The position numbers and the translations under genes were made by a program. 64,000 nt of DNA from assembly GCA_026874595.1 (NCBI GenBank), contig CM049309.1, positions 10,193,076 to 10,257,075 of the forward strand, written 5' to 3'. How positions within the stretch are numbered: position 1 is the stretch's first letter; each line of letters opens with the position of its first letter. The stretch comes from Sipunculus nudus (lineage: Eukaryota > Annelida > Sipuncula > Golfingiida > Sipunculidae). The notes beneath the pieces are model-generated. The model ran no database searches. It saw nothing but the letters and a program-made list of their open reading frames with translations, and was not told where the DNA came from. Shown in pieces: positions 4,311 through 38,053 of the stretch.

Positions 4311-4960
4311 GTAAATATATCAGGACCCAATCAGCAAAAATAAAAGAAGAAATTCTACTACCGCCCGAAAAGAGGTTAGTCAAACAAATCTGGTAATTAT
4401 CTAACAGCAAAATACTGCTCTCCCTTGTCTCGATTCCATATGATTGATTCAAAAAGAAATATAACTGAACAGATGTACAGTCTGGTTACATTTTAGTGAT
4501 GACCTTAGCTGATGATTTTGAACTAAATGCATTTGAGGATTCATAGAGATGACGTCACACTGGTATTTCTTTATCCCACTTTTGTTTATCACACATACAT
4601 CCCTTCTTCAATATTAAATGGATAAACACAGATATGGCCACTTAAAATTATGCCATTGTTTTTGCTGTTTTGCCTCGCAAAGTAAATATATTTATTTAAT
4701 TCTTATTATAATCATCATAAATTGCCACATTGCCTTTTTTGATGAAACCTAATGTATCTGAAAAAAAAAAAATAAATTTGGAAGAAATATTGCGAAAAAT
4801 TAGGTGGACACAGATGTTAATAAGGCCTACAGGCCTAATGCGAACCTGTGCATTGGGAAATACACTAGGTATAATGCTTCAATGCTCGACCATTATTTTT
4901 CATGTATATGAACAATGCAAGTACTAAACATTTTGAATAAGAAACAATTACACAAACATC
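4311..4960. other. Unassigned AT-rich sequence
   Basis: I see no recognisable gene or repeat. A run of 11 A at about 4761 precedes AATAAATTTG, but no flanking duplication shows that it is a retroposed tail. Confidence 0.4.
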
Positions 4961-5345
4961 ACTGCTGAAATTCTGGCATGGGTGCACACAACACAAAAAC
5001 GATTGTAGCTGGCACCACCAGTCTTGTATACAACTAAGCTATCAGAGATATACACATATGCCAAATTTCAGACTGATATATCAAACCCCTCCTGAGAAAT
5101 AAGCAGGGACACACATTGTGCAAAAATTATTGTAGATGGCACCACCAGTCTTGTATACGACAAAGCTATTCGATATGTACAAATATGCCCAATTTCAGGC
5201 TGATATATCAAATTTCTCTGTAGAAATAAGCAGGCACATACACTGTGCAAAAGTCAATGTACGTGGCACAACCTGTCTTGTAAATGAGAATACCATCAAA
5301 GATGCATAGACAGGTCAAAATATCAGTCCAATACATCAAACTTCC
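4961..5345 (+). repeat. Degenerate three-unit tandem repeat related to the GGTGGCGCCACC family
   Basis: Three units of about 117 bp begin near 5015, 5132 and 5248 with variants of GTAGCTGGCACCACCAGTCT. Each continues with a CTTGTATA-like phrase, a short ATGCCAAATTTCAG-like phrase and TATCAAAC. The wording parallels the 2.3-kb and 50.9-kb elements, but no element ends are visible, so this looks like an old fragment. Confidence 0.5.
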
Positions 5346-5434
5346 TCAGAGTTTGATGCACTGGGCTGACAAGGCTTAGGTGAGTAAGGCAGTTGCCCCC
5401 GAGTGACCTGTGACAGATTGCTGCCTCAAGCTAC

Positions 5435-5695
5435 TGCACTGAGTGAATTCTTGACCTGCAACCTGGCTAGACTGAGTGAACTTTTGATCTGTACCTGGCT
5501 GCACTGAGTGAACTCTTGACCTGTTGCATAATCTGACAAAGTTGGCAGTCTGCCAAAGCTATAAATAGATTTCGGCTGATCTTTGGTGCCAAATATGATC
5601 CAGTGAGCAGTCTGCCAAAGCTATAAATAGAATGCAGCTACTGCACTGAGTGAACTCTTGACCTATACCTGGCTGCACTTCTTCTACGCTCTTTA
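5435..5695 (+). repeat. Short local tandem repeats around CACTGAGTGAACTCTTGACC
   Basis: Four imperfect copies of a CACTGAGTGAACTCTTGACC phrase occur between 5435 and 5665. Two copies of GCAGTCTGCCAAAGC followed by TATAAATAGA lie among them (about 5541-5572 and 5608-5632). TATAAATAGA resembles a TATA box but is repeated with its surroundings, so I do not call a promoter. Confidence 0.45.
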
Positions 5696-5739
5696 CACAG
5701 CGCTTTACCAATAGGCCAACAACCTATATGGTAAGTGCT

Positions 5740-6095
5740 GTTTGTTATGACCTTGTATCCTGAATCTCTACACCAGACATGAGCACTGTATTTTGGTCCA
5801 ATCAGATGAGACCATGTGCTGTAAGACAAAACAGTTTACCAGACAAGCGAGGAATACACGAAGCCAATTTTGTTCATTTTGTTTTGAGTGACAGCTCATC
5901 ACCCCGGCAACTGTTTCAGCAGGCCACAGGCTCAGAGAGAATTGCCCAACCCGTTGTTTCTGGGCGGAGCCTGATGCCTGTTGAGTGTTTGTTGACTTGC
6001 ATTTGGTTGGCTGATAGTCACATCAGCAGTTTTTTTTCAGCAGACAGGTCCATGTACACCACCTGGTGATTAAGTGCATCATAAACGGTCAAAGC
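5740..6095. other. GC-richer patch with CCAAT and GC-box-like motifs
   Basis: This stretch is less AT-rich than its surroundings and contains GTCCAATCAGATG (about 5796) and a GGGCGGAGCC motif (about 5962). A 96-codon ATG frame on the plus strand (5779-6069) has no recognisable domain and no convincing splice signals. It could be an old promoter or exon, or simply repeat-derived. I cannot decide. Confidence 0.2.
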
Positions 6096-6146
6096 AGGCA
6101 GCGGGAATTCAGTAGCTTCTTTAGAAGCGCTGGATTTCCGCTGCCT
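6096..6146. repeat. Near-perfect 51-nt hairpin
   Basis: Positions 6096-6120 pair with 6123-6146 as 24 base pairs (three of them G-T) with only A6114 bulged and a TT tip. The outer nine pairs are AGGCAGCGG/CCGCTGCCT. Pairing stops abruptly on both sides. It could be a foldback remnant or a structured RNA. At 51 nt with a tiny loop it is short for an animal microRNA precursor. Confidence 0.6.
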
Positions 6147-6149
6147 CAG

Positions 6150-7017
6150 GAGGGTACACTTCTTCCAATCCTGGCACTGTACCAAAACTATTTATAGAGC
6201 TGACATCATCTTGGCTAATGGCCAACATAAAGACACTGGCAATCTCCCAATGGTTAACCAAGTGCTGCCATCTGAACACAAAAGTGGTCCCTACTTGAAA
6301 TAACTTTGAAATTTATTTTCCCAATACAAAATACTTTTCAGCTGACTTATTATAAAAAAGAAATCAGGAATATATGTAAAATTATTACGAATGCATAGTG
6401 AATGCAAAATTAAAATACAGATATATCTCATTGATGGCAAATTTTTAATTAAGTTGAGTAGGGATACCATTAATTTATAATCCAAATACAGAGGTCTTTA
6501 TATAGCCACAGAGAGCTGAAAATCAATGATTGTAACGCTGCCTGGTATGATGAATAACTTAAATCATAAATCTAAATTTTTTAAAAGCTTTCAAAAAAAC
6601 TTTCTTGTCAATATTAACCACAGATAACCTGAAATCTGAATGTCTAGTGGCATGATGTAATAGATGCTGATAAACTGGTGCCAGGCTAGATGTAACAGCA
6701 TCACACAGCTAACATATATGGTAAAATGACTCAATTCAATCTCCATAATTCAGCCAAAAATCATTCATGTGGAACAATTAATGACAATTATTATAAGAAT
6801 TATTGTAGGAATTATTCTTGTAAAATATTTAACAAACTGTTACCCTTTAGCAAATATTATAGGTAAATTTTATATAATTTACTGTGTAAACTTTAAATAT
6901 TTCTTCTTGTAGTAGGTCATTGGTGATTATTAGTCATGTCAAAGAATATTTAGGTGATATTATATGTGAATTTTTGTATATTTTGTGTTTAATCCTTGCA
7001 TGCATTATTACCTTTGA
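6150..7017. other. Unassigned AT-rich sequence
   Basis: Nothing recognisable is seen apart from general AT richness. The short minus-strand frame at 6291-6485 has no domain. Confidence 0.4.
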
Positions 7018-7215
7018 TATTATTTTTACTATTAATATTATTATTAATATTATTATTACAGATATTATTATTTTTAACATTATTATTATTATCATTATTA
7101 TTATTACCATTATTATTTTTATTAAAACTATAATTATTATTTTTAGTATTATTATTATTAATTTAACTGTAATAATGATAATTGTTATTGTTATTATTAT
7201 TATCATTATTATCAA
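7018..7215. repeat. Imperfect ATT/TTA trinucleotide microsatellite
   Basis: The stretch is built almost entirely of ATT with occasional C, G or A interruptions. It creates matching 100-codon open frames on both strands made of Ile/Leu/Val, which are artefacts of the microsatellite. Confidence 0.85.
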
Positions 7216-7557
7216 TATTAAGAGCAGTAACTGCATTTGAAATAAGGGCTGTCAACATGAATACCAATAGGAAAGGTTCCCCGTGATCATGACACATCTA
7301 ATATCCCTCTCATCTCTTGTGTGATCTGTGGATCATCTGCTGAGCCAAATGCCAATGGCTGAATCCATCAAGCCAGCACAAATATTTAGGTATTCAGAGA
7401 ATCCATCTGGAAGTGAATAGCTATTGAATTGGAAATGCAAATAATGATCTGAGTGACTTTCCTATTCAAGCTAATAATGGTGCCATGTTTACAATGACAG
7501 CATGTTAAATTCTAACTTCCCTGATGAAGTTATTTATTTCTTTATTTTTAAAGAATA

Positions 7558-7602
7558 GGTCCATGGCCTGTTAATAGCACTACCTATTGAATGGGTATGC
7601 AT
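7558..7602 (+). repeat. Solitary relative of the 34-bp satellite unit
   Basis: GGTCCATGGCCTGTT (7558-7572) followed by CTATTGAATG resembles the first unit of the large array at 38.49 kb. The resemblance extends to the bases on its left (AAAGAATA here, AAAGGATT at the array edge). A third relative, CATGGCCTGTTAGTGGT, lies at 9283 after AAAGATAGG. This looks like part of a dispersed element from which the satellite may have grown. Confidence 0.45.
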
Positions 7603-7792
7603 GAAACAATAAGATATTAGCATGTATGTAATTATTTAGCCATTCAGCTTAAATATGCATGGGGCTTGGAAAAATCTAGAAGTCATAACCTGTGTTTGGA
7701 ACACTGAAGTGAGACTCTTTAATTTCAATCGAGATTTCAGCATTTTGCCTTTGAGTTTCTGGTGGGTATAAATGCACTTAAACTTCTACTAA

Positions 7793-8160
7793 AATGCCTT
7801 CTAGTCTAATGCCTTTTGGTCCAATGCCTTCTAGTTCCATGCCTTCTTGTGGAATGCCTTCCAGTTCAATGCCTCTTTGTCCAATATTATATTTAATATT
7901 ATGCCTTCCAGTCAATACCTTCAAGTCTATTGCTTTCCAGTCCATTGCTTTCCAGTCAAATGCTTCAAAGTCCTATGTCTTCTAGTCCAATGCCTTCTAG
8001 TCCAGTGCCTTCTGTTCCAACACCTTTAGTCCAATGCCTTCCAGTCTGATGCCTTCTAGCCAAATGCCTTCCAGCCCAACACCTTCTATTCCAATGCCTT
8101 CCAGTCAAATGCTTTCCATCTTATGCTTTCTATTCCAATGCCTTGATTGCCTTCTTGTCC
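7793..8160 (+). repeat. 15-bp minisatellite, core ATGCCTTCTAGTCCA
   Basis: About 24 imperfect copies lie head to tail, with small indels and one AT-rich interruption at about 7885. Because 15 is divisible by three, the array gives short open frames (for example a MPSSS-like frame from 7794) that I treat as artefacts. Confidence 0.85.
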
Positions 8161-8324
8161 TATACACAGTAAAATGAACTTGCATTTGGCGCAATCAGTG
8201 GCATGAAAGAAAACATAAACATAGCAACCCCCACTATTACATAAATTAAAATGGCAACCAAAGGTAAAATATTTGATGCATAACAAGTACATTTTCCTTC
8301 TTTAACTGCATGTTTTCAAACCAA

Positions 8325-8430
8325 ATACTGTAGTTCGGTTTATATTTGCGGGGTTAAATTTTGTGATTATTACTCTTTCGCGAATATAGCGAATTTGAAA
8401 CCCTCGCTAAAAGAAAGGCAACCACAGTAT
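8325..8430. mobile_element. Short MITE with ATACTGTRGTT ends
   Basis: The left end ATACTGTAGTT (8325-8335) is the inverted match, with one change, of the right end AACCACAGTAT (8420-8430). The interior holds CG-bearing phrases (CTTTCGCGAA, ATAGCGAA) that are unusual in this AT-rich DNA, and a GAAACCCTCGC phrase. Diverged relatives occur at about 25,165-25,262 and 48,480-48,590, both ending in an ACCTCAGTA phrase. Confidence 0.55.
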
Positions 8431-8439
8431 TGTATGTCT

Positions 8440-8968
8440 CGTTTTATAACTCACTGACACAACTGAGGTATTTATATTTTGTATCAGCAAAAATGAACTG
8501 ATAGTGGAAGATATAATACAACTAAATCCCTTTAAGACAAGAACATTTTCCCAATATTATTTTGATACTAGAAGGATCTGCTCATCAATGTAATAGGAAG
8601 GTAATAGGAGATTGTACCCTTCTTAAAGAAACCACATGCACTGATACATAAGATTACTGACAGAACATACCATTTCAACTGAACATCATAAAAATGTACT
8701 GAATTCATGTCAATGTCTGTCTGTTCACCTAGAACACTGTTGTATGGAAATTGATTTGTTTCAAATTGAAAAGTTTGTCTACAGATGACAAGTTTGACAC
8801 TTATTAGGACATTTTACCTGTCAGGTTTAACTGTTTTCTGGTTGGCAAATTGACACTTTACATTATTGCTACTGTTCTACATACTAAAAGCTCAATCAAT
8901 GCATTAAGACAAATGTGATCAAAGCTTCAATGTGAATTAAGTGTTCCAAATCTATGATATCCTCAAAT
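8440..8968. other. Unassigned AT-rich sequence
   Basis: I see no supported gene or repeat here. Confidence 0.4.
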
Positions 8969-9222
8969 CAGGGCTGGCTATACTGGGGTACGATCCCAAG
9001 GCAGGGGTTATACACTGCAGTCATCCGAGATCTAGTAATTGTAATCAGACCAATGAGAGCACAGTATTGCATTGTGCATCCAGGTCCAAATTTAAAACAT
9101 GCAACACCTGCTCTCATTGGTGTGATAACACTGTTTCTGGCAAAAAGCCAAGAATCAGACCAATGAGAGCAGATGTTGCATGGTAAATATTTGGAACTGG
9201 AGGACAATGTCTGATTACAATT
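8969..9222. mobile_element. Foldback element with hAT-like left end
   Basis: It starts CAGGGCTGGC (8969). Inside, AATTGTAATCAGAC (9037-9050) is perfectly repeated in inverted orientation at 9209-9222. A second inverted pair of about 30 bp centres on TGCTCTCATTGGTGTGAT (from about 9112) and ATCAGACCAATGAGAGCA (from about 9154). A related fragment at 24,290-24,392 ends GCCAGCCCTG, the inverse of the left end, so the family probably has CAGGGCTGGC terminal inverted repeats as in many hAT elements. The CCAAT motifs are part of the inverted repeat. Confidence 0.55.
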
Positions 9223-9654
9223 TAGAATTTCAGAAAATTTCTTTACAAATTATGACCATGTGTTTTTCTAAAGATAGGTATACATGGCCTGTTAGTGGTA
9301 TTGCAGCTAAAAAGTTTGTAAAAGCTCAAATTTGACAATTGTTAATTGTTTTAAAGTTGTTAACATTAAATCAGCTTAATTATCTAATGGACAGGTGGCT
9401 AGCAGATCAAAAGAGTATTTTAGCCTTAAAAAATGGACACATAGACCTAATTCTACACTGGCAGGAAACAACAGACACAAATCATCAAATGCAAAATGAC
9501 ATATAGCTAAAGTTTAGGAAGAAAAACATAACCTTACATGTTACTCTCATTGCAGTAGCAGTATTACAACTTTGAACAGTAATTCTACAAATGATCTAGC
9601 AGCGACCTATACATACCAGCTGTGATCAAGAGCGAACTAATTAGCTTGAACGGA

Positions 9655-9727
9655 AGTCAGACTCGTATTATAGTTGGAAGAGCTGTCAGACACACTTGTA
9701 TTATAGTTGGAGGAGCTGTCTGAAGGT
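9655..9727 (+). repeat. Two-copy tandem duplication, about 37 bp
   Basis: CGTATTATAGTTGGAAGAGC and TGTATTATAGTTGGAGGAGC occur one unit apart, each followed by TGTC. No function is seen. Confidence 0.6.
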
Positions 9728-9785
9728 ATACTAATCTCGCAAGTAAGTTAAAATGCCTTCAATAACATTTGCCAACTAGAATCAG

Positions 9786-10135
9786 CATTGTAATGAATGC
9801 AAGCCTCCAGCATGTGTGGGGGGGGGGGGGGGGGGGGGTGTCCCTATTGTGGGATGCTCCCCAAATGGTGTTGGCATTCACTGGGGTTCATTTGTGCATA
9901 AGTGACTGTAAATTTGTGAATATACTTGATGAAATTCCTGAATCAGGATCATGTGCCTGATCTACATCAAAACATGATTGATTTTTCATTGGCCTGTTCC
10001 CAAAATGCCCCTGAAAATTTCATGAGATTTGGTTCATTATTGTGCAAGTTAAACTGTGAAGAAACACACACATAAGCACACACATGAACGAGAATGAATG
10101 CATAACCTCCTTGAAAAGGCAACAAAAGCACAAGA
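9786..10135 (+). mobile_element. RTE-type LINE/SINE 3' region
   Basis: The order of phrases is AATGCAAGCCTCCAGCATG, an oligo-G run of 21 (about 9818-9838), TTGGCATTCACTGG, GGATCATG, TTTTCATTGGCCTGTTCCC, GAAAATTTCATGAGATTTGG, an AAACACACACATAAGC phrase and GAATGCATAACCTCCTTG. The final phrases match the typical 3' end of RTE/BovB-type elements in invertebrates. A homologous region lies at 58,530-58,920. No reverse transcriptase sequence is present, so this is a 5'-truncated LINE or a SINE borrowing an RTE tail. Confidence 0.6.
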
Positions 10136-10193
10136 TAATGCCCAAGTCACACCTGAGCCACATCAGGGCTCTGGCCAGGCTCTTGAAGAAATA

Positions 10194-10364
10194 CAGTGGA
10201 ACCCCACCTAGGGACCACCCCACAATTGCAACAACCCCCACAATTACGACCACTTTTCTTGGTCCTGAATATATATGTAACTTAGAATTTCACAAACACA
10301 ACCACCCCCTTATTATGACCACTTAGTCAGTCCCCAAGATGGTCATAATTATGGGATTCCACTG
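10194..10364. mobile_element. 171-bp pogo/Tc1-mariner-like MITE
   Basis: CAGTGGAACCCC (10,194) and GGGATTCCACTG (ending 10,364) are 12-bp terminal inverted repeats with one mismatch. TA flanks both ends (10,192-10,193 and 10,365-10,366), as expected of IS630-Tc1-mariner insertions. The interior has repeated GACCACC/ACAATT phrases and no open frame. It sits about 60 bp after the RTE-like tail. Confidence 0.75.
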
Positions 10365-10366
10365 TA

Positions 10367-11539
10367 TAGTAATTTTTAAGAGGACCTTAGGCAAAATTAT
10401 AGGAGATTATAGGAATTTTCAGGAAGAGATGCAGGAGCTTTCATTGCAGAATCATAGTTTGCAAGATAAGTTAACAGGACCATTTATCCACTAAGCAGTG
10501 TATAAAGGTCTATTTAATTGGTTTAGACTGCATCACCTATATGGATAGTTCTACAAGAAAGCTGCAAGTTTTCAATTAAAATAGGTTTATTTCACAATAA
10601 TTATTCAATATTAAAATTATAGCTAAAATATGACTGTGTAGTGAATATAAATACAGTAAAAAATATGGGAAATTCAGTCAAATTTCCTAAAAATAAAGGA
10701 AATTATAGTAGATAATTCTTTCACAGGAAAATACAGGGGAAAAAAAGGGTATGGCCTGTATAAGAACCGGTTTGTAATTCAAACACTAGAATCCAAAATG
10801 TCATGGCCACACCACACGTGCACATGACCTGCATTTCATGCCAGCTTATATCAGCTACTGCATGCACTTCAAATATCGATCAGGTTAGATAGATAAGAAC
10901 AGAGCCAAAGCACTATATAATGTTCCAAGAGGTGGAAAATACAGTCAACCTAGCCCCTAAATTTTTGCTGAATTTGCATTACCTGGTAACTAATCAATAT
11001 GAAATTCCCATGAAAAGATCCAATATGTACACACTGACACTTCCGTTACATGGTGTTATGTCCTGACACACTCATCAGACACAGGCTCTGTCCTGGCTAA
11101 TGGGCTTTTATTTGACGAGCCTTTTTAAGTTTAACGATTTGTCTATATTCTGATGGTTCAGCTGAACTCATCATCAGTAGCAGTGCAGGTCTTATATTCA
11201 TGATCTACCTGATTTAATCAATGCTACATAGCAGTTGTAGAGTACCTGCACATATTTGTTCTCACACTCTGTGGCAACTGTGGCAAATTTATACTGATGG
11301 TTTAGCAAACAATTAACATATCATGGAATCAATAGGGGTACATTTAAGGAAAGTCTCAGGAGGATTACTTTTAAAGGTTGTGTACACTGTCTGTAGTTGT
11401 GAATAGCTACTAAAAGGATAAAAGAAAGCCAGTAATAGATAATATCTTGCTAAAAAGTCATATGGATTTCTCTTTTTGTAAGACAGAGGGCTGGATAAAA
11501 TACAAAAATCATTAATTATAGTTATAGATTTTAAAGTGT
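10367..11539. other. Unassigned AT-rich sequence
   Basis: I see no gene or clear repeat. The longest frame (11,313-11,552, minus) overlaps the end of the next element and lacks a recognisable domain. Confidence 0.4.
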
Positions 11540-11992
11540 AAAAGGGGCCCAATCACCTTTCTGAACTTTATAAACTAAAGGTAATCCATTGGATGTTTTA
11601 TAAAAATAGGCCAGAAACTGTGGATATCACCACACACAGGCTACTTATTTGGTTAATATCAATATGTTTATAATAAGTCGGGGCCTGCCAAAATAATCAA
11701 AACAAATTAAACAAGGGCATCTGGCAGCAAGTCAGATAAGCCAGAGCTTTGCATATGGCGTTTTGCAATGAGTGACCTTTCTACCTCTCCATATATGCAA
11801 CTTACCACCTTAGGTTACGTGTTTTTCCCGTTTATCAATATTGCTATGATTACAAACCAGTTGTTGATAAACAAGTTCATACATCCTTCACAAAGGGATC
11901 ATAAGAACTTTATACAACCAAAATTACTCTTTCATCATGAAGCCAAATATCACTTAAATTCCTTTTCGAAAGGTAAGTGAATAGGCACCGTA
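11540..11992 (-). mobile_element. AAAGGNGCCCATTCACCT-type terminal-inverted-repeat element, copy D
   Basis: Read on the minus strand this is a near full-length copy of the family also present at 47,653, 50,079 and 54,934. It runs from GGTGCCTATTCACTTACC (minus strand) through TTAAGTGATATTTGGC and ATGTATGAACTTGTTTATCA to GGTGATTGGGCCCC. The ends are inverted relatives (GCCTATTCACTTACC and GGGGCCCAATCACC). The family is non-coding at about 400-470 bp and I cannot assign a superfamily from the ends alone. Confidence 0.7.
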
Positions 11993-13986
11993 AACTTAAC
12001 TCTCTTGAAAAGGTTTTACATATCAATGTTTAGGAAGAATAGGCTTATGGCTTGTGTGGCTGATCTGTCTATTGAAAATGTGTATGTTATTATGAAACCA
12101 TGCTGATTCCAGGTTGTACAATCATGACGCAAGGAAATATCAAGAAATCATAATCTGTAGCTAAGCAATATCAGGCCTGCCAAGGTAAATGACTGAAATA
12201 AAAGAGTAAGTGTTCTGGAATAAAAGAGTAGACTTCTTTAGATATAGAGTGAAAAAAAGAGTAAAATTAGCGGCAAATCCTTATTTTTTATCACAGACTG
12301 ACTAAAGATGTGCTTCACACACAACAAATGTGTATTTATACCGTTTCCAAAATCAGAAACATACATGGTGCATATCCTCCTGCATGAAGGGGGTTTTCCA
12401 CATATTTTGACACATGCTGAACATTTGCACACATAAAAGCAGGAGATAAGTAAATAGTTTATATCAGAATTCTTTCAATGAAAAATAGAGAGAAAATATT
12501 GAGCGCTGCTGAAAAAAGAGATAAAAAAGAGTACTTAGCATCATCTTCAGGAAGCCCTTAAAAATGTATTACACTGAATCTCTGAAGCTGTATTGAAAAT
12601 TCACCATTTTGCCTTTTGAGATGCTTGTGTGGATCAATTCAGGAACTTTCAACATCCAGCTCCAACACCTTAACAACTAGACTGGCTGGCACTGGAGTTG
12701 CAAAGGAATGAAATTCTTGTATGAAACGAGTGGACATGGCATATATTCACATCAAGTGAGCAACATTGACCACAGGGTCCACAAAACACCAGGGTTTCCA
12801 ACAATGTACCAGAGAACAAGACATTGACAACAGATGGGCTATGAGTAATGACATTATGCATTAATAAAGTCTGATCAATAAAACTCATATAGGGATCCTA
12901 AGTACATGTAGTACAGTGTAAAGGACTAGGCTTATTGACATGGACAGTCAGACTATGTGACATTGTCGCAGCTGAAGCCAAGCTTAAAATTAACACATCC
13001 ACTCAAAGCCTGGATACGCCACAGGGGTATTTGTTACAGAGCATGTGTGGGAATTGGATTAATAGCATGTGTACGAGGACTCCAAGGTATAACTGATTCT
13101 GAGGTTCTGGATTCTGAAACAAACAGAAATAGAAACAACTGGTCCCAAAAGATCCTGAATCAGGTTCATGAAATACCCAGTTCCTCAAAAGGGGAGTCAA
13201 TTAATTGTGGTGATACTGGATTTTAATGGGACTGTTCTAGTGGTAAACATCTCATGGGCTGGCAGGGGGTGGAAAGAGGACTGTAAAAGTAGATCCCTGA
13301 CTGCTATTTATGCTGATGAAGACTTTCATCAAAAGTGCAGACTTTCATCATGGTAAACACATTTTTTTTTGTCATTTACACAAGGATGGCCTGTTCTAAA
13401 ACCCTGGACATCCACAGTGGAAACAACTGTGAAGAAAAAAAATATGAAAAAATATAACTGTTCTAAGAAACACTCAAGTTGCCTATTTTTATGTTTCCTT
13501 TGACTCAAAATCTCTGAATGTGCATTTTCTAAATAAATGTCCCTCAACCAGTTAAGGAATATTGGATTTTCTCTGATTTATTTATCAGTTTATCACTTGG
13601 GCCAAATCTAAAACCTAAAACCTTAGCTTTTCTCTTTAACATTCAACCTTTCATCACTTTTTTAATTCAGAAGTATTAAATTGTTCAAATAACCCACCCA
13701 GTATCAATGCATGAGTGAAAATATGCTGAGTCCTGATAAATGTTTCATACTTGTACCAAATATTTTTTCTGGGGTCCGTCAAAAATCTGCCCACCATGTT
13801 TTAGGAAGTTTCTCCATATCAAACAAAAAGCCTTAAAATTCCTTTTTATTCAAACAAGTTTTTCCCATTCCATTTGGCAAGTTTTAGTCTCTTAACTGTA
13901 CATTTCAATACCATGGTATCCCAATGGTATTTAATCTAAACTTCTTAAAGATTTCTAGTGGATTTGTCACCTTATCCTTTATAATG
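11993..13986. other. Unassigned AT-rich sequence
   Basis: Nothing supported is found. Frames at 12,957-13,226 (plus) and 13,003-13,200 (minus) overlap each other and show no domain or good splice context. Confidence 0.35.
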
Positions 13987-14918
13987 CCAGGGGTGGATCC
14001 AGGATTTAGGAAAAGGGGGAGTTCTAACCCAAGAGGATTAATGACAAAGCCTAAACTAGAATATCAGCAGAAGCTGACAAAAGCCCTCAGCCAAAAGAAC
14101 AGTGTTTAGGGGTGGTAACAGTAACAAGTACTAAATATCTGTTCTCACATGGATGTATATCTGTACATGTCTCAGTTATAAATTTAAAATGGAGAGGTAT
14201 GTACCATGATTCATAACAATCCACCAAATGCTTCCTGAAAAATAAGCTTCTCAGTTTTATTCTATTATAAGCTCTGTGACCTTGAAAAGTAGGTCAAGGT
14301 CACCCATCTTCGAACATGAACAAGATTTTTGTCGATATACATCTTCACCAAAGAAATAAAATTCCTATTGTGAATCCTTTTAGAGATATCCCGCTCACAA
14401 GCCCAAAGTTGAAAAATCAAAGAAAAATTCAATAAAAAATCAGAAATTGCAGGTGGCGCCCCCAAACTTGTGCAGCAGTTACAGACCATCAGTCCCTATG
14501 ATCATAGTAAATATTGTGAAAATCCACCAAATGGTTCCTGAGTAATAAGCATCTAAGTGTTTTTCTATAATCAGCTCTAAAATGTAGAAAAATTGGTCAA
14601 GGTCACCCATATTCGAACTTGACTGAGATTTTGTCGATATACATCTTTACCGAGGAAATAAAATTCTGACGGTGAATCCTTTTCAAGATATCCCGCTCAC
14701 AAGGTAAAAGTTAACGGACGCCGGACGGACAGACGGACAGCTTGGGTGACGACAATAGCCCATCAGCCTAAGGGCTGAGGGCTAAAAAGGCCCTAAGGTC
14801 CAGTAAGGGGTGGGGGGGGGGGGGGTCCAGGCTGAAAAAATTGGTCTGAAGCCTTTAAATAAAGGTGTGTGCAGCTGAAAAAAGCCCCCCCCCCCCCCAT
14901 GAATCGGCTTCTGAATGC
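13987..14918. mobile_element. Outer element split by family B copy 1
   Basis: The left part (13,987-14,053) reads CCAGGGGTGGATCCAGGATT and then an AAAAGGGGGA run. The right part (about 14,789-14,918) has an oligo-G run (about 14,811-14,825), an oligo-C run (about 14,885-14,898) and ATGAATCGGCTTCTG. The two ends look like diverged inverted repeats (GGATCCAGGATTT against GAATCGGCTTCTG). I read this as a GGGGTGGATCCAGG-type invertebrate repeat cut by the 14,055-14,785 insertion. Confidence 0.45.
14055..14785 (+). mobile_element. Family B tandem-bodied element, copy 1 (two internal units)
   Basis: It begins ACTAGAATATCAGCAG and carries AGCCCTCAGCC at 14,082-14,092. Two diverged internal units of about 290 bp follow, each with GGTCAAGGTCACCCAT, TTTTGTCGATATACATCTT and GTGAATCCTTTT. 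The end is CGGACGCCGGACGGACAGAC, GGTGACGACAATAGCC and a hairpin at 14,756-14,784: 12 base pairs, a single bulged A at 14,762, loop TAAG, ending GGGCTAAAA. The 3' arm GGCTGAGGGCT is perfectly complementary to the 5' AGCCCTCAGCC. Copy 2 at 20,995 has the same two ends, which fixes the boundaries. Confidence 0.75.
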
Positions 14919-15439
14919 CATACTTGATCTAACATCTAACACCTGTTAAAGAACTTTTGAATACAGTTCCTTCTTTGTGCCTATATATAACCTTTATAAG
15001 GGTGTGGGTTGACACTGCAAAGGTGTTACACAGAGCCAGCGAATTCCTTTTTTAATATACTCCATCAAAACCAATTCATCCAGCTGAGACTGACCCAACT
15101 GATTGCACATACTGTCCTCTCTTATATCTGAGTGTATATTTCCAGGCCTTTACATTCAAGGAACCGAAAGATCTTAGCTATCCTCTTAATGTTTTATGGT
15201 TTCACCGAAGGCCCAGAATCAACCAGTACTGCCAGTACAGACATGAGGCATGCTAGGCACACAGCTGTACTTGTTTTGGACAAAACTTAGCTACCTTACG
15301 AGCTCAACTTGACTTTGCAAAAAGTTTACTAGCTTCAAATGGTTTGAAAGAATGCATATTATTATGGTGATGTCAAAAAGTATCTACTTTTTTTGTTGGG
15401 TAACCACCTCCTTTTATTTTTCCAGTATTGGACGTTTTT
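14919..15439. other. Unassigned sequence
   Basis: I see no supported gene. The frames around 15,352-15,619 run into the adjacent SINE. Confidence 0.35.
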
Positions 15440-15690
15440 TTTTCCTGTTGTTACACAGGCCCATGGACGACTGCACCTGTTGGTCCTGGGTTTGTATTCG
15501 CCCCTCGTTGCTGGGTCCTACCACTGAGGAACTCCCGAAAGGGGCACTCATTTGTTAGTGAAACACTGCATTTGGGCACGACCTTTCCATTTATTAAGTC
15601 TGCAGCGCCCTCATCCTAGGTGAGGGCTTCGGCTGAGATTCAAACTCACAATCGCCCCGCTTAATCCTGTGCTCTACCCCTGAGGTAATA
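15440..15690 (-). mobile_element. tRNA-derived SINE
   Basis: On the minus strand the head carries an A-box-like TTACCTCAGGGGTAGAGCAC (about 15,670-15,689) and a B-box-like GAGTTTGAATCTC (15,635-15,647) at normal tRNA spacing. Downstream is a GC-richer body (AGGGCGCTGCAGACTTAA, GGGGCGAATACAAACCC on the same strand) reaching about 15,440. The frames at 15,352-15,619 are shadows. The exact tail is not resolved. Confidence 0.6.
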
Positions 15691-15849
15691 GATGTACTTT
15701 AGTTATATCAAATTTATCTTTTAAGTTTTATAGATTTTAATATTTATCATAGGATATTTGTCAGCCATCTCACATTAGATTGTACAGGTCTATTTGTGCA
15801 TTTTATCTTTTTGATAACCACATTTTTTAATCATATCCAACAATAATGT

Positions 15850-16100
15850 ACAAACTCAGCTCACTTCAGCTTAGACAATGATGCATATACTCAGCTCACT
15901 TCTGCTTAGACAATGATGCAGAATCTCAGCTCACTTCAGCATAGACCATTTATCATGCACAAACTCAGCTAACTTAAACTTAGACAATTATGCACAAACT
16001 CTGCTCACTTCAATTTAGACAATGATGCACAAACTCAGGTTACTGCAACTGAGACAATGATGCATAAACTCAGCTTACTTCAGCTTAGTGAATGTATGGC
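15850..16100 (+). repeat. 35-bp tandem repeat, about seven copies
   Basis: Units start at 15,854, 15,889 and 15,924 and onward, with core ACTCAGCTCACTTCAGC followed by TTAGACAATGATGCA. Copies are 75-95% alike by eye and fade out near 16,120. Confidence 0.8.
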
Positions 16101-16129
16101 AAGGACTGTGAGTAAACTCAGCTCCGTTC

Positions 16130-17118
16130 CACTTGAGCCTGTCTTTGTGAGCATGAACTCAAAGTGTTTCTGAGGTCTTCTACTGAGTATCAAATAACAT
16201 AACTTATCATCCTAATTTAAAGTGAAATGTCTCAACTTGTTTCAGGACAGTGCCAAAATGACTCTAAATAGTCATTTTCATATGACCACTTGAAAATTTA
16301 AGACTGGGCCTCAAATCTACCAATAAAAGACCAGTTAAATGAGTGCAGTCTAATTATATAAGACAAGGGTAGAATTATTTAGCAAGGCAATCAGCAGTGA
16401 TTTTATTTTGATCAGCTTCTTGAGTATATGAGAACCACAGCATTCATAGTACACAAATTTTAAGAGGGTAAGCAATTTGGCTCAGATTAACCCGCTGGTA
16501 AATACGCTGCAATTTAATTTCTCTAGTTCATTCTCCACATTGCTATTTGTGAACTAATGACCTTTTTATCAGAATATTTTAAATTCACTGTAAGAATGAA
16601 AACATATTACGCTTCTAATTTCAAAGGCTGTAAAATGAAAAGTTGTAAAGGTCAACACCACATGGAAGAAGACAAATTAGAGAAATTATGGGATAGTCCC
16701 CTAGAAATGTGCGTGGAGGGCAGCAAAGGACAAAGGACAATGGAGAAAGATCACAGAGAATTAAACCCAATGAAGTAAAAGGAAACCATGGCGATATCAA
16801 AACAAGAACCCTAAATGGTATAATGATTACATGTAATTAACTGTTTTAGGGATCTTAACCATTTCACTGACATGTAGCATATACAGACCATGGTACACAA
16901 TTTTAGACATTATAAATTATTTGACAAATGTATGATCTCAACTAGGGGTAAGAATTCTCAATCTTTTGATGAAAGTTTGTGACCACGGAAATACTGTATT
17001 TATAAAGCATACTGAACTGAATTTATTCATCATATTTTTTTACTAGACAGATGTATGAAGTGCCATTCTGGTCCACTGCATAGAGATACAGAACAAGAAT
17101 ACACAGAATAAGTGAGAT
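16130..17118. other. Unassigned AT-rich sequence
   Basis: A 74-codon plus-strand frame (16,557-16,778) has no recognisable domain. Nothing else is supported. Confidence 0.35.
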
Positions 17119-17120
17119 CA

Positions 17121-17196
17121 CCCTGTATGGGAATCGAACCCATGAACCTCCGATTGCCAGTTGTCTGATCTACCACTGAGCTAACATGGATCCCCA
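17121..17196 (-). tRNA. tRNA-like sequence (SINE head or tRNA pseudogene)
   Basis: On the minus strand it has an A box (TTAGCTCAGTGGTAGA) and a B box (GGTTCGATTCC) at normal spacing. The T stem is perfect (ATGGG/CCCAT), the D stem has three of four pairs and the acceptor about five of seven. The anticodon stem does not pair well, so no amino acid identity is assigned. It is either the head of an old SINE or a decayed tRNA copy, and unlikely to be a working gene. Confidence 0.5.
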
Positions 17197-17199
17197 ACC

Positions 17200-18700
17200 C
17201 CTCTGTGTATCAGCATATTTTTTTACTGATATTTTTATGACAAAATCTTCCATATATTTCATTTAAGTAACTGTCTGGCAGCCACTCAGCCACTCAGCTG
17301 TCATAGAAAAAGTAAAAAATTGTCTTGATTAAGGAAAAAAAAAGGTTTAAGGTTTAATTATACTTAATTTTGCCTTGTAATAGAGACCTTTGTATCTTTA
17401 ATTGAAATATTACTATTTGATAATGAAGAGTCTAACTACCATTTTTGTTTTCTATACTAGTTTAGGCCAATTGTCAGAGCCATCACTGATCATATCAATT
17501 ATTAATACATAAAAATAGATACACTGATCCTATTCACATCCGTTCATAATTACCATGATTGAGAAACAATGACTACATAAAAATAAATATAAACAATAAA
17601 ACTGAAAATAACTGATGTAATTATAGTTAATGATAAGCAAGCAGGTGAGATATCAGTTATTTTTAATGATAATTTACACAATGAATTTAATTAACTACAA
17701 TTCACAGTCTAGTGGTTTTGATTTTTTTTTTCTGCTCAATGAATTCAATTGGTGTATTTACACAAATGAGTTTCATTAGGCTCAGCAATTAAGTGGGCCA
17801 CTCATAATCACCCAGCATTTAAGTGTGCAGATTAATTTAGAAATCACCCCATACAGGTTTTGATTTGCCTGACATCAATCAACTTGAAGCTATGTTTGCC
17901 ATTTATTGCTTCAGACAAGAGATTTCCTTTTAGTTTTTGTTATTTTCAATGATACAGTTGAATAGTGTAGGAAATGACAATTTGTTTGTGCCTCCATTAC
18001 AAGTTTCTGTTGTAGCAAACAGTAGCTTAGAAAATCATCATAGATTCATGGATTTTGGTGATGTTCCAAAACTGTGAATTAGGGTTCAGACAATATCAGT
18101 TTTTATATCATAATAATTATGTCAAATTCATTGCAGTATAGTTTGATATTGTAATATCAGTATCTAACACAGGAACTCCAGCATTTGTCATCATATATAT
18201 ATATATCACAATTGCCAGTACTTTTGAGCTAGCAAATCCCTAGAGTTTTCACAGAATGTGATTCTGTCAGTTGTCAATTTTTTTTATACTTAATACTTCA
18301 ACACAGAATTTTGATAAAATAAATGATATATCCTTAAAGGGTATTTTGTTTTTTTAAACAGAAAGACCCTGGTAATGACATTATTGTTAGGTAATAATCC
18401 TAACAGGGCATGTTGTGTACCAAAAGTATGGACAAAAATGCATACTGGTATCATGATATCAGGATAATAAGCAAGTTAACGATACAATTATCTGTCAGAT
18501 GTCAGATATCTTGATTATCCCAGACACTGATTATCATTCCAACCCTACTGTGAATACATCAGGACATATTGGTATTGTCACAGGAATTGTAAAAACAATA
18601 GTATAAAATGAAAACAAATGTCAGGTTGAAGCAGTGGACTAGGCAATCGCAGACAATGGCAGTGTTTGTGATGTGTGACTGGTCATCCTTTCCTGGGATT
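17200..18700. other. Unassigned AT-rich sequence
   Basis: No genes or clear repeats are seen beyond short A runs and a TATATA run near 18,196. Confidence 0.4.
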
Positions 18701-18701
18701 C

Positions 18702-19193
18702 TTTAAAGGAACATAATCAGGAGTAATATTTTGCCTACATTTCCACACTAACAGTTCAGTTTTGCTTTATACAAAAGTTTACCAGCAAATATCTTCCAGC
18801 ACACAGGCACAGTACCTCGAATACAGCAGTTTAGCACCTTGTTATGGCTCTGAGTGTTGGTAAACACAGTCCACATGTGTTTGTTTACCAAAACAATCCT
18901 GCATGACCGGAAGTCCGAATGTGAGAAGCAACACATGATGTTTCAGCCAGCAGGAACATATATATTTCATTTTTTTGGCCAAGAAGTCAAGGAATCTCAA
19001 GACTGACACGTGTTGTAGCATGCACTGTGTTTATGTTTACACCTGTGATCGCGCCTGGTCCACTGTTTTTAACGCTAGTTAACTGGAGTAAGCAAACGGT
19101 TACAGGGCAATAGTTTACCAATTCATTTTAAAGTGAAGAGGCTATTTTTCGTGTTAATTCAACATGCTTATAGGTGATTGGGCTCCTTTAAAA
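18702..19193. mobile_element. Probable diverged terminal-inverted-repeat element
   Basis: The left TTTAAAGGAACATAATCA (about 18,702) and right AGGTGATTGGGCTCCTTTAA (ending about 19,192) are imperfect inverted relatives. The right end resembles the GGTGATTGGG end of the family at 11.5, 50.1 and 54.9 kb, but the interior is too diverged for me to align confidently. Confidence 0.4.
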
Positions 19194-19400
19194 CTGTGGC
19201 AGGAAATTGTTAGAAATAAAGCAAACCATAGACGGCCTGGCATAGGCAAAAAAAAAAAAACTTCTATTGTGCACCATGCTGCCTTTTTATATAGGCACTT
19301 GCAGATTTCAAATCTGGAAGGGAAGGTCCAAAGTCTAACACCTCTGAAACCAAACCAGAGTGTGTCCGATCCCCTCTTGAAGCACAAACAACATCACCCA

Positions 19401-19477
19401 GGCAAGTAGCTCTCTGTACACTCAGAAACGAACAATATCATACGGGCAAGTAGCTCTCTGTACACTCAGAAATACAA
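19401..19477 (+). repeat. 44-bp tandem duplication
   Basis: GGCAAGTAGCTCTCTGTACA followed by CTCAGAAA occurs at 19,401 and again at 19,445, almost unchanged. Confidence 0.75.
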
Positions 19478-19479
19478 AC

Positions 19480-20400
19480 TGATATTCTAGCTGCTCATGA
19501 AGTTAACACAAATTCCTAATTATGAACAAAATCTGGTTAAATATTTGTAATTAAAGCCTTAAATGTTACCTTAATACTAAAATGCAAAACTGTTTAAAGA
19601 TGATCATTGAGTCATAGCAATATAATCATAACTGCTACTCTTGCATAAAAGATGTAAAACTATCTCAAAATACAATACAGTCTAAGCTAGTATCAAGTGT
19701 GCAGTTGATTTTGAATAACAGGAACAAATTACTAGAATAAGCATAATATGCATAAAATTCTTTTTTTCTGTGATACCCTTCAAAAATATTATAAAACTGG
19801 TTTAATATCACTGCTATGTATGCTATACCTAATTCTGCCCAACATTCCTCTATATCACACAGATCTTTTATTCTTAATTCTCTTGTATATGACAAATATT
19901 ATCATGTATGCTGTTGTAATCCACGGAAACCTTAACTTTAGTATGACCCAAATGAACTTAGAATTTGAACTTAAAACCCAAGTTCAAATCTATATGATGG
20001 AAACCATAATAAAACTCCAGGAAATTATATTGGTGAATTTATGACCTGTGTGACCTGTAACTCTATATGCCACTTAACTGTAAATTAGACAGTCCATGAT
20101 AGAACATGACTATCATTTTAGTCAGTAATGGCTGGGTGAAGAAATACTTAGGGGAGGAATTCAGTGGTGTAATTGCATACACACATACAGCGCGAGTATG
20201 TAATCAATACCATTTGTATTTACATGAGAAAGTTAGCTCAACTCACTGACAGGATAGTGTTTAAACACCATCACATTAGCTACCATCTAAATCAATACAA
20301 TTTGTGTCTTATTGTATAAGGGTTAATACACAAACAGTGAAATAAGGCAGCTAGGGAAATTCCAAAAGTATGTACAGATATAAACACAGAGTGGAAAACT
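19480..20400. other. Unassigned AT-rich sequence
   Basis: A 98-codon plus-strand frame (19,748-20,044) encodes a hydrophobic, low-complexity stretch (FLILLYMTNIIMY) typical of AT-rich chance frames. No gene is called. Confidence 0.35.
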
Positions 20401-20994: not shown

Positions 20995-21995
20995 ACTAGA
21001 ATATCAGCAGAAGCCAAAGGAACAGTGTTTAGAGGTGGTAACAGTAACAAGTACTAAATATCTGTTCTCACATGGATGTATATCTGTACATGTCTCAGTT
21101 ATAAATTTAAAATTGTTTTACCATGATTAATAACAATCCACCAAAAGCTTCCTGAAAAATAAGCTTCGAAGTTTTATTCTATTATAAGCTCTGTGACCTT
21201 GAAAAGTAAGTCAAGGTCACCCATCTTCGAACTTGATCGAGATTTTGTCGATATACATCTTCACCAAAGAAATAAAATTCCTATTGTGAATCCTTTTAGA
21301 GACATCCTGCTCACAAGGCCAAAGTTGAAAAATCCAAGAAAAATTCATTAAAAATCAGAAATTGTAGGTGGTGCCCCCAGACTTGTGCAGCAGTTACAGG
21401 CATCAGTCCCTATGATCATAGTAAGTATTGTGAAAATCCACCCAATGGTTCCTGAGAAATAAGCTTCTAAATGTTTTTTCTATCATCGGCTCTAAAACGT
21501 AGAGAAAAAGGTCAATGTTACCCATCTTCGCACTTGACCGAGATTTAGTCCATATACATCTTCAGCGAAAAAATAAAATTCCTACGGTGAATCCTTTTAG
21601 AGATATCCGGCTCACAAGGCCAAAGTTGAAAAATCCGATTAAAATTCATTAAAAATAAGAAATTGTAGGTAGCGCCACCAAACTTGTGTAGCAGGTACAG
21701 ACAATCAGTCCCAATAATCATAGTAAGTTTTGTGAAAATCCACCAAATGGTTCCTGAGTAATAATCATCTAAGTGTTTTTCTATAATCAGCTCAAAAATG
21801 TAGAAAAATAGGTCAAGGTCACCCATCTTCGAACTTGACCGAGATTTTGTCGATATACATCTTTACCGAGGAAATAAAATTCTGACGGTGAATCCTTTTC
21901 AAGATATCCCGTTCACAAGGTAAAAGTTAACGGACGCCGGACTGACAGACGGACAGCTTGGGTGACGACAATAGCCCTAAGGGCTGAGGGCTAAA
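20995..21995 (+). mobile_element. Family B tandem-bodied element, copy 2 (three internal units)
   Basis: It starts ACTAGAATATCAGCAGAAGC and ends GGGCTGAGGGCTAAAA, as at 14,055-14,785, but holds one more internal unit of about 290 bp (GATCATAGTAAGTATTGTG-type phrases near 21,414 and 21,716). The terminal hairpin lost seven bases of its inner stem but keeps the outer TAGCCC/GGGCTA pairs. The GACGGA tract is CCGGACTGACAGACGGACAG. Confidence 0.75.
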
Positions 21996-21999
21996 AATC

Positions 22000-24392: not shown

Positions 24393-25164
24393 GTGGTGAA
24401 ACCCTGAAATACGTTTTACACTAAGCAGCAATTAATACAAAGAAGACACAGAATGACTGCAGTCAGATTATAACCTCTGCATGAGTTGTATTCAATATAT
24501 GTTGTTTTGATGTATGCTATACATAAACAACTAGAAAACACAGACAGAAGGCCAGAAAGACAATGGTCTTAATATGGTTACTTATCTTGTTAAATGGGAA
24601 ACAAAAACAAGCAAACAGATAAACACCCAGACAAACTGACTAAAGGACAGTAAAAATACGGGTGCACTGGTAAATATAACTTCTGAAAGACATTGCTGGC
24701 AGAAGTAAATAAGTCACAAGAGTCTCTTGGGCAGCAATATCCTGATAGAATCTTCCTTGGAGCCTGGTTGGGGTTTTATGACAGAGTAACTGACAGTGTG
24801 TGTTTGTTAGGGTAACCAAGCATTGTTCCTGCTTGTCATATGACTAAGAATGGATTAGATGCAGGTCTGATCCAGAATGATGAAGCATTCACAAAGGACT
24901 GTTGGCTTCACATTTGTGGTGCTAAATTTTGATGATTCTAACTTTTTCAGTGTTTCACTAGTGTTCCATTTTCATGATATCACCATACACTAAGTATATC
25001 CATTATCATGTGATTTATTCATATTGAGCATCAAACAAGTGGATTTTCTTTTATTCAGTGTTGGCAGATAATGCTAAAGATCTATTGACTGTCAATGATA
25101 CACACAGTAAAAAGCATGAATAACGTACACAAGGTGCCAATGAGTATACAAAATAAATGACCCA
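24393..25164. other. Unassigned AT-rich sequence
   Basis: A phrase near 24,900-24,960 (TTGGCTTCACATTTGTGG, AACTTTTTCAGTGTTTCAC) faintly resembles 48,195-48,245. No gene is seen. Confidence 0.3.
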
Positions 25165-25262
25165 TGTGGAAGGGATGTTTCATTCACAAAGGTTTAATTT
25201 TCATGAAAATTTAACTTTTAAAAATATTGTGAATGTGAAACCCTATTAACAAAAAGCCAACC
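25165..25262. mobile_element. Diverged copy of the ATACTGTRGTT MITE
   Basis: GTGAAACCCTATTAACAAAA and CCAACCTCAGTATAC align with the right half of the element at 8325-8430. The left end is decayed. Confidence 0.4.
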
Positions 25263-25369
25263 TCAGTATACTGATAGAGTACCAAAAGGAAGATGGTAGC
25301 TAGCAGATCAACTGCCAGCCTGGTGTTACATAAAACCCTGATCATATTCATGACCAACAAACCACTGAA

Positions 25370-25740
25370 CTCTGCTCCATCAACCTGCGTCAAAATAATT
25401 TGGATGACTTCCTTAACATCATACATTTTGGAATGATTATATTAAATGTGGCAATAAAAACTGATAATGAAATCCTCATAAACATGTATATCTTATATTT
25501 GGCTTTTCTCCATGATCTGACAACTGATACATACTGCATGAGTACGCAAGCCATTTTTAATTGTTTCAGCTGGTTATGCTTTTGTCAATAGTTACATGAA
25601 TATCATCCAATCTGCTGCTGTCATACATAGCTTTTACTGTTTTGACTGCCTTTTAGTTGGTTAAAAATTGTTAATCACAGAGTTTTTGAAAAATTTGGAA
25701 TGTGGAAGGTGGTGATTTGTTTCACTTACCATAAATTAGG
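25370..25740 (+). repeat. Dispersed repeat, copy 1
   Basis: GAACTCTGCTCCATCAACCT, GCATGAGTACGCAAGCC and ATCATCCAATCTGCTGCTGT occur in the same order as their counterparts in 30,300-30,600. Spacing is similar, so the two are homologous. Ends and class are not resolved. Confidence 0.45.
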
Positions 25741-25904
25741 TATTGCCTCAAGATTCCCTTGTCTTTTCACTTTCTAGATGAAGAAATATTTTCCAAAAAC
25801 ACATTTTTCACTAAACTTTCATGACTCTTTCATAAAATTTGGTTGAAAAACATTAGTATTCTAGCTAATAGGCTGATAAGCACATAAAATATAAACCAAC
25901 AAGT

Positions 25905-25942
25905 ACTGATGAAAACATAACCTCATTGCCAGAGAAATTTCT
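25905..25942 (+). mobile_element. RTE-type 3' tail remnant
   Basis: GATGAAAACATAACCTCATT followed by GCCAGAG is the typical terminus of RTE-type elements. Upstream sequence at about 25,825-25,900 (AAAATTTGGTTGAAAAAC) fits a decayed 3' UTR. Confidence 0.45.
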
Positions 25943-26442
25943 ATTCGACAAAGGATATAACATTTCCATCCAGCAAAGTGAGATGCATCTCCTAATATGG
26001 AAATAGTAAGCTCTTATACACATCACATAAAAATAATACACTATCTTTGTAAAGGGTTTTATATAAATATACAGATAACATCATGATTTATTTGTGTTGG
26101 AAATTGCTTAGGTGCACCACATTACAGCTTTGATGGAAGCCATGTTTCTCTTTGAAGTCTCTCATAACCACAGTGGAAATGCAATTGTGTCCGCTCTGTC
26201 CATAAGTGGTGGATACACTTTACACAATACAAAAGAAGAATGAACCCATAGTGCCTACCGATTTTCAATCAGCCAGAAATATATTCTCTGAACCATGCGT
26301 GACAGGATTCATAATGGTCCTGAGACCAATTTTTGGTTAAAGGTTTTAAATGCTTAAAAAAAATATCTATTATTATTATTTATAAGACAAATTTTCCTTA
26401 ATTCTTCAATCATTATCATTATATGTGAGATTTTCACCAAAA

Positions 26443-27260
26443 AATAAACCTATATTTAAGGTCAAGGTCTTTGTCATAATAGAGGTCATGAAAAATTAAA
26501 ATATGCTTAGTCCTCTCGCCCATATCTATCAACCCGCTAAGTTTGAAAAAGAAATATGAAATATTTTTTGGGCAACCATTTCAGTGTACAAAAATTATCT
26601 AAGGTGGGAGCTTGACCATGCTGAACCAACACTGTCCAGGCCTTCTCCACTGTCCCCGCCATCTCTACTGTCCCCACTTTCTCTCTCAGTCTGAGGATAA
26701 AAAAATCACAGCAATTATACCAAAAAGAAGTCTGGTGACATCTGACCTCATTAAATATGCATGGTTTTTACACAGAATCAAACATTGGTTAATTATTCTG
26801 TTTTCTTCAAAACCATCATATTGATGGAAAGTGATCATGCCGAAGTGGCACAAAGACGTCGGGTGACCTCTAACCTCAATAAATGTGTGGATCTATGTTG
26901 AGAATTTAATTCAGGTGAGACACTATGGGTAAATACATATAATGGATTTCATGAAAATCTGTAAGACTTTTGGTAAATTATCATGGTACCACTGAAGTCT
27001 GGTGACCTCTGTCCTCATTAAATAACTGAATTTTTGGGGAATCAAACTTTTCATGAGATATTAGACAAAAAAGATTGGTGACTTTGCAGCTCACAAAATA
27101 TGCCTCAATTTCACATAAAATTAAACTTAATGAGCTAGTCTGTTGTTAAGTATACAGTAAGATTCATGGAAATATTAAATAATCAAAGCCCTGGTAAGTT
27201 ATCCTGCCAACACTAAAAGTTAATGGATGGATGGGCAGATGGTACCATGAAATGCTATAA
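26443..27260 (+). repeat. Degenerate tandem-bodied repeat
   Basis: Phrases like GTCTGGTGACATCTGACCTC followed by ATTAAAT recur at about 26,729, 26,862 and 26,998 (spacing 133-136 bp). The right end has TGGATGGATGGGCAGATGG, like the GACGGA tracts of the other tandem-bodied elements, but no clear terminal hairpin. Confidence 0.4.
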
Positions 27261-37750: not shown

Positions 37751-38053
37751 CCAGATGGGCAAAGACTCTAATGAAATATGTCAGTGCCAGATGGACAAAC
37801 ACTGTAATGAAATATGTCAGTGCCAGATGGACAAACACTTTTATGAAATATTTCAGTGCCAGATGGACAAACACTGTAATGAAATATGACAGTGCCAGAT
37901 GGACAAACACTGTTATGAAATATGTCAGTGCCAGATGGGCAAACACTGTTATGAAATACATCAGGGCCAGATGGACAAACACTGTTATGAAACAGGTCAG
38001 TGCCAGATTGAAAAACACTGTTATGAAATACATCAGTGCCAGATGGACAAACA

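Follow-up and report, generated by a model that had tools for sequence, protein, structure and literature searches.

Terminal hairpins of repeat families in Sipunculus nudus and their probable identity as non-autonomous Helentrons

Among the Helitrons, the Helentron/Helitron2 branch comprises the closest described relatives of the repeats reported here. DINE-1/Helentron elements of Drosophila, a mite and Culex carry subterminal repeats of 12–15 bp, a palindrome at the other end and a (CCGT)n(CTGT)n microsatellite, and in Drosophila also an inverted copy near the outer repeat. According to the cited passages they insert into T-rich targets without duplication, have a Rep-helicase-endonuclease partner, at times with an OTU protease, and occur as several families per genome (PMC4067079, PMC2374699). 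For Helitron2, which has asymmetric terminal inverted repeats, it was proposed that pairing of the distant repeats destroys the terminal hairpin and sets the end point of replication (PMC3627910). The Rep-Hel gene is found in either orientation relative to the ends (PMC3627910, PMC4067079, PMC5148889), and published convention, as cited here, puts the hairpin at the 5' end of the element.

Here, we describe repeat families in a stretch of 64,000 nucleotides from Sipunculus nudus (the window) and in the remaining genome. They resemble the DINE-1/Helentron elements in the features listed above for these, while their sequences differ from those elements; the mite HINEs, as described in the passages cited (PMC4067079, PMC2374699), have no near inverted copy, unlike the families here.

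Hairpins and distal ends of the elements

The elements of families A to E in the window are collected in Table 1. A sequence-only reading of this DNA had proposed that different repeat families end in a hairpin of one common plan. The hairpins were indeed found at every position it had given, and family A has the A.G mismatch instead of a bulge that it described.

Table 1. Elements of the repeat families in the window and their end features
Feature	Positions	Strand	Particulars
Family D element, right part only (remainder left of window)	1–366	+	145-bp tandem units 1–273, GGAC-rich tract, hairpin 338–365, end CCCTAA
Family A element, left end approximate	1375–4310	+	palindrome GACCCATGGGTC, distal repeat CTCAGCTGA (1404–1412), GGAC tract, hairpin 4277–4307; nested family E inside
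Family E element nested in A	2278–3678	+	starts ACTAGAATACGG; hairpin end cut off, part of A absent to its right
Family A terminal hairpin	4277–4307	+	8 + 5 pairs with A.G mismatch; fold from commoner sequence
Family B element, copy 1	14055–14788	+	ACTAG distal end
Family B distal repeat AGCCCTCAGCC	14082–14092	+	complementary to hairpin 3' arm
Family B terminal hairpin	14756–14784	+	two runs of 6 pairs with a bulged A between them
Family B element, copy 2	20995–21997	+	301-bp tandem core; hairpin 21972–21993, 7 nt shorter
Family E element	50863–52880	+	280-bp tandem core; hairpin 52846–52875; palindrome GTAGTCG/CGACTAC; repeat GTATCCGCCAAAA (50896–50908); CGG run before hairpin, no GGAC tract
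Family C element	61116–62398	+	ACTAG distal end, GACAGA tract, hairpin 62367–62397 with bulged A

The window was scanned for TAG...CTA hairpins with an outer run of at least six pairs and at least nine pairs in total, one bulge or small mismatch being permitted. Six distinct places pass, each on both strands (12 matches), compared to 0–6 matches (mean 2.2) in ten Markov-1 shuffles of the window. Four of the six places are the element hairpins of A, of both B copies and of C given in Table 1; the others lie at 56715–56738 (A/T-rich) and at 38074–38094. The latter, TAGCTGAGCTTAAGTCAGCTA with AAAC behind it, looks like a family A hairpin that has been shortened and sits between two very long tandem arrays lying side by side (30713–38053, 36-bp units, about 204 copies; 38491–44434, 34-bp units, about 175 copies). 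The left-edge family D copy fails the scan: it reads TTGGGC...GCCCTA, and its second outer pair is T.T. The stem TAGGGC/GCCCTA ascribed to it earlier is that of most family D copies, but not its own. A tRNA-like match at 17119–17190 on the minus strand (32.1 bits, E 0.0086) barely passes the Rfam gathering score.

Across the source genome (1.43 Gb), the pattern GTGAYNACWATAGN{14,40}CTAA gives 5,495 exact matches, about the first 100 of which were listed, against 97 for the reversed control. In the copy searches the best 40 per family were scored, out of 1,888 candidates for B, 2,850 for C, 3,536 for A, 2,912 for D and 1,773 for E. An end alignment was made from 84 rows, two loci being entered twice: A, C and D contribute 20 copies each, B contributes 23 (21 distinct), and the window B copy was added. 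In the 82 distinct loci the flanks diverge, as judged by eye, right where the hairpin and the short run of A behind it stop; the length of this run in A and B is perhaps overestimated, as the best matches were chosen. Sharp ends are seen for A, C and D (20 copies per family) and for B (22 copies). The hairpins are real and are placed at true element ends. The term 3' end used for this side in the sequence-only reading is right about a true terminus, but published convention would name it the 5' end.

GGAC/GACAGA tracts, which read as a GTCY microsatellite on the other strand, adjoin the hairpin in A–D and in the enzyme-coding stretch X3 (see below), and A–D also share a phrase before the hairpin. 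Such a tract had been noted before the hairpins of A–D. The fifth family, E, has a CGG run; beside the hairpins of families E and H (ACAAACAG) the GTCY-type microsatellite is absent. Family E ends in GGATACAATT.

The distal end was located for 22 of 64 rows of B, C and D, which were retained by distal-end match, many stretches being too short to reach it; 17 of these 22 start exactly with ACTAG. Family A starts with (A)TAAACAAGGGACC in all three extended copies, and the left end of the window element agrees with copies A30, A31 and A32, while family E starts with ACTAGAATACGG in both of its window elements. Behind the distal start follows a palindrome with stems of 4–7 bp in all seven sequences considered (A, B, C, D, E, and H1 and H2 of family H). 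Family H palindromes include variants changed on both sides (GACC/GGTC, AACC/GGTT, GCCC/GGGC); other copies among those listed have unpaired changes.

After the palindrome comes a distal repeat that is complementary to the outermost arm of the hairpin in families A–E and H. The elements thus carry subterminal inverted repeats, one at or near the terminus and its partner tens of nucleotides inside the other end, and a near inverted copy of the outer repeat, which forms the hairpin, is present in all seven sequences. The longest unbroken complementarity between distal region and 3' arm is 11 nt in A, 11 in B, 8 in C, 10 in D, 13 in E, and 11 each in H1 and H2, whereas the identity of the distal region to the 5' arm reaches only 5–8 nt. 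By DNA folding, the distal duplex (−14.2 to −17.4 kcal/mol) is predicted to be stronger than the local hairpin (−6.8 to −13.3 kcal/mol) in seven of seven sequences, although these energies are rough and set a two-strand against a one-strand reaction. For family C, hairpin and distal end were taken from different copies in both comparisons.

Differences between families and the interrupted helix

In the set of A, B, D, E and H2, pairing is seen in 38 of the 40 cells given by the outer eight hairpin positions, counting G-T as a pair. When the arms were re-dealt among the families, the mean was 22.4 and the next-best order reached 35. The summed distal complementary runs amount to 56, against a permuted mean of 19.6 and a next best of 47. 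In both cases only the true order out of 120 reaches the observed value; with one sequence for each of five families, 1 in 120 is also the floor of this test. Family C was left out because its outer stem is the same as that of D. The permutation is biased towards pairing, since possession of a hairpin was what the families were chosen for; copy boundaries, without use of the hairpin, gave the distal end only for B, C, D and A. The earlier observation that outer stems differ while their pairing is kept therefore holds between families.

Covariation within the copies of each family, which the sequence-only reading had named as the support to look for, did not appear. Own pairs were no better than shuffled partners in A (0.996/0.996), B (0.992/0.992), C (0.869/0.873) and D (0.900/0.905), using 20, 21, 20 and 20 copies, respectively, the window B copy and the repeat entries of two B loci having been left out. 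This is expected if copies decay after insertion. Hairpin, distal repeat and palindrome differ jointly between families only.

A bulged A had further been described as kept in B, C and the left-edge element. DNA folding gives such a bulge for B and C; A and the usual form of D have an A.G mismatch instead, and H2 has an A.C mismatch. E has no unpaired A, and here as well as in the X1 hairpin (H1, family H) the unpaired base lies on the other strand, as a bulged G and a bulged C, respectively. A fixed bulged A as a signal was therefore rejected. In family C the unpaired A is present in 20 of 20 copies, which says little for copies no longer mobile. What recurs in all seven sequences is one break of the helix after 6–9 pairs, while its kind varies.

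It is conceivable, if rather doubtful, that this interruption is a selected part of a switch in which the near partner is broken and the distant partner unbroken. The interrupted hairpin would stay weaker than the end-to-end duplex and would yield on arrival of the far end, which would fix the end point of replication; the kind of defect would be free to vary provided that the helix breaks after 6–9 pairs. The switch dates from a 2013 proposal (PMC3627910), and a selected defect would be new with regard to the passages cited; among the open-access titles and abstract openings listed, none presents a break in the helix as required. In Drosophila the near inverted copy is described as partial and/or interrupted (PMC2374699). 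In PMC5148889, the two Fusarium hairpins given appear uninterrupted, and this argues against interruption as a universal rule.

Rep-helicase-endonuclease loci and insertion sites

The source genome contains at least 143 matches to the Pfam domain Helitron_like_N (150 of 195 candidates scored), seven of them in open reading frames (ORFs) of more than 2,200 aa. Five loci were grouped. Group 1 comprises H1, H2 and H5, and the H1 ORF carries DUF6570, OTU, Helitron_like_N, PIF1 and Exo_endo_phos domains. Group 2 comprises H3 and H4, and the H4 ORF carries a Herpes_teg_N type domain, DUF6570, Helitron_like_N, PIF1 and Exo_endo_phos_2. The Pfam scan covered H1 and H4, whose domains exceed the curated cut-offs; H2 is 93% identical to H1 over 7.2 kb, and H3 93% to H4 over 6.0 kb. 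The protease-like N-terminal domains differ by group (Herpes_teg_N type, L091 1354–8613; OTU, L085 2100–8849).

The sequence-only reading had also suggested a search for an autonomous relative with the same end, and two such loci, H2 with its own repeat and H3 with family A ends, were found. The clean copy is X2 (contig C4, locus H2), whose 30.5 kb contain a single ACTAG distal end (785) and a single terminal hairpin (24780–24810), with an intact ORF of 2,229 aa between them. These ends are 24 kb apart and follow the plan of the window families with a repeat of their own, GCTTGCCGG. X1 holds two hairpins 75 nt apart, and hence the ends of H1 are ambiguous. The X1 and X2 ends were recognised by eye where the match between X1 and X2 stops, and were then confirmed. 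Short and long elements of family H carry a common repeat (X1, X2), and the start motif of this family has 1,577 exact matches genome-wide, against none for the reversed pattern.

In X3 (contig C17, locus H3), an intact ORF of 2,342 aa is preceded by a family A hairpin at 4640–4668 and a second one at 5364–5392, which makes the exact left end ambiguous, and followed by a family A distal repeat at 19490–19525, about 15 kb from the hairpin. X3 and its relative X4 match from this hairpin end onwards (4634/2557). TAGCTCAGCTGACT and GTCAGCTGAGC are identical between family A and X3, i.e., the repeat identity of at least 11 bp by which a non-autonomous partner is recognised, while the ends as a whole are only 78–86% alike. 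X4 has no recognisable distal end, the best candidate showing 5 mismatches in 20. The Rep-helicase ORF heads towards the hairpin in X2 (785–24810) and away from it in X3 (4634–19525), with ends of the same plan. As it is opposite in the two, ORF orientation is not decisive for polarity.

Repeats of B, C, D or E were found at none of the five Rep loci examined, out of the at least 143 matches in the genome. The first stretches of these five loci (14.4–14.5 kb each) contain no TAG...CTA hairpin; a search for a hairpin with a third copy returned one chance match there, inside the H4 ORF, and no convincing match over the wider X1 and X2 stretches. For H5, covered by its first stretch, no ends were recognised.

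Tandem read-through copies without terminal hairpin were considered as a sign of polarity and rejected, since the X1 element at 24419–27223 is nested in the microsatellite of another one, whose hairpin follows. At 24419–30501 of X1 (L095+L085+L086+L096) there is a repeated 4,096-bp unit that combines a nested family H element with a Helentron tail; its second occurrence is identical over the available 1,987 bp. Contig C1 shows dense family H start motifs at about 64–66.3 Mb (among the matches listed, on C1 only) together with several Rep matches, as if this region were largely built from Helentrons.

One paralogous empty site documents an insertion. At L004, a local repeat carries a B element in one of its units; the adjacent unit, with a likeness of 81% on one side and 74% on the other, lacks the element and reads CAAG|AAAAGG, without target duplication. 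The family H element of X1 is likewise inserted in the microsatellite of another without duplication. Flanks are mostly A/T-rich; at the L004 empty site the A/T run hides a base, such that the exact T-T position is ambiguous. The E element nested in family A was rejected as an empty site, as it lacks its hairpin end and about 280 bp of A have been lost as well. Window B copy 1 and the A32 copy occupy the same place in similar host sequence.

Identity of the families and known systems

The shared end plan, the pairing kept between families and the Rep loci with ends of the same type argue for one type of machinery, that of Helentrons. Families A, B, C, D and E are very probably non-autonomous Helentrons of the HINE/DINE-1 type, within the Helentron/Helitron2 branch. 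In their terminal hairpin the outer subterminal inverted repeat pairs with an inverted copy close by that is slightly imperfect, and the outer repeat also has an uninterrupted complement in a third copy some 20–40 nt inside the other end, beside a small palindrome. The Rep-helicase-endonuclease of an autonomous Helentron would replicate the elements as single strands and insert these into A/T runs, leaving no target duplication. The hairpin would be opened, and the end point of replication set, when the two distant repeats pair, following the published model. We infer that such proteins move families A–E, and the Rep part would presumably recognise the hairpin.

A canonical Helitron1, with 5'-TC, 3'-CTRR and a hairpin some 10 nt (10–12) before the end, is a very improbable source of these ends. 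Helitron-type enzymes are present in the genome, and most ends of A, B, C and D read CTAA, which is compatible with CTRR; however, the starts are ACTAG or TAAACAAGG instead of TC, the hairpin is terminal and includes the CTA, and family E ends in GGATACAATT. The families' ends therefore do not show the combination of 5'-TC and a hairpin 10–12 nt before 3'-CTRR, and a distal complementary repeat and a second palindrome are present in addition.

Even less credence is given to MITEs of a cut-and-paste DDE transposase, in which the hairpin would be the remnant of a terminal inverted repeat. The non-coding nature of the families, their many copies and the inverted repeats near both ends would fit, but the single empty site examined has no target duplication, the repeats are positioned asymmetrically, and two of the end sets are common to Rep-helicase loci. 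Equally remote is a function of the pairing in RNA, e.g., as a SINE 3' end or a known RNA family. A sharp end that carries a hairpin is SINE-like and a phrase before the hairpin is common to families A–D; against this, the sole match above the Rfam gathering score in the window is the tRNA at 17119–17190, the distal repeat varies between families jointly with the hairpin, and two end sets surround Rep-helicase ORFs.

With the Helentron assignment, the proposal of the sequence-only reading that different families are mobilised by one transposition machinery is largely borne out, whereas neither the fixed bulged A nor the novelty holds. Machinery of this type, the hairpin and the compensatory changes had already been described in the passages cited (PMC3627910, PMC2374699, PMC4067079, PMC7492417). 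The anatomy of such families, their compensatory changes and the switch model are in print there. In the published accounts cited, end choice by Helentrons is a proposal without biochemical proof. The present genome offers about five distinct repeat sequences on one plan together with intact enzyme ORFs, and arm swaps between families could test the published switch model as well as the role of the hairpin defect.

As far as the cited passages go, the resemblance to Helitron2 extends to the hairpin formed by the terminal repeat, to the distal copy beside a second hairpin and to compensatory changes in two related elements, comparable to those between the families here (PMC3627910, PMC5148889). 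PMC5148889 separates Helentrons from Helitron2 by the endonuclease domain, and such a domain is present here; the long Helentron copies measure about 15 and 24 kb. The Pacific oyster element Cg_HINE and Pearl, the latter as cited in PMC7492417, are like the window families in having an outer repeat of 11–12 bp with a close inverted copy, a GTCY/GTCC microsatellite, a satellite-like tandem core, a distal repeat with a palindrome, and several sequence-unrelated families in one genome. This likeness concerns the described features. The passages of PMC7492417 on Cg_HINE and Pearl describe no enzyme-coding partners, whereas enzyme-coding loci with ends of the same type are present here.
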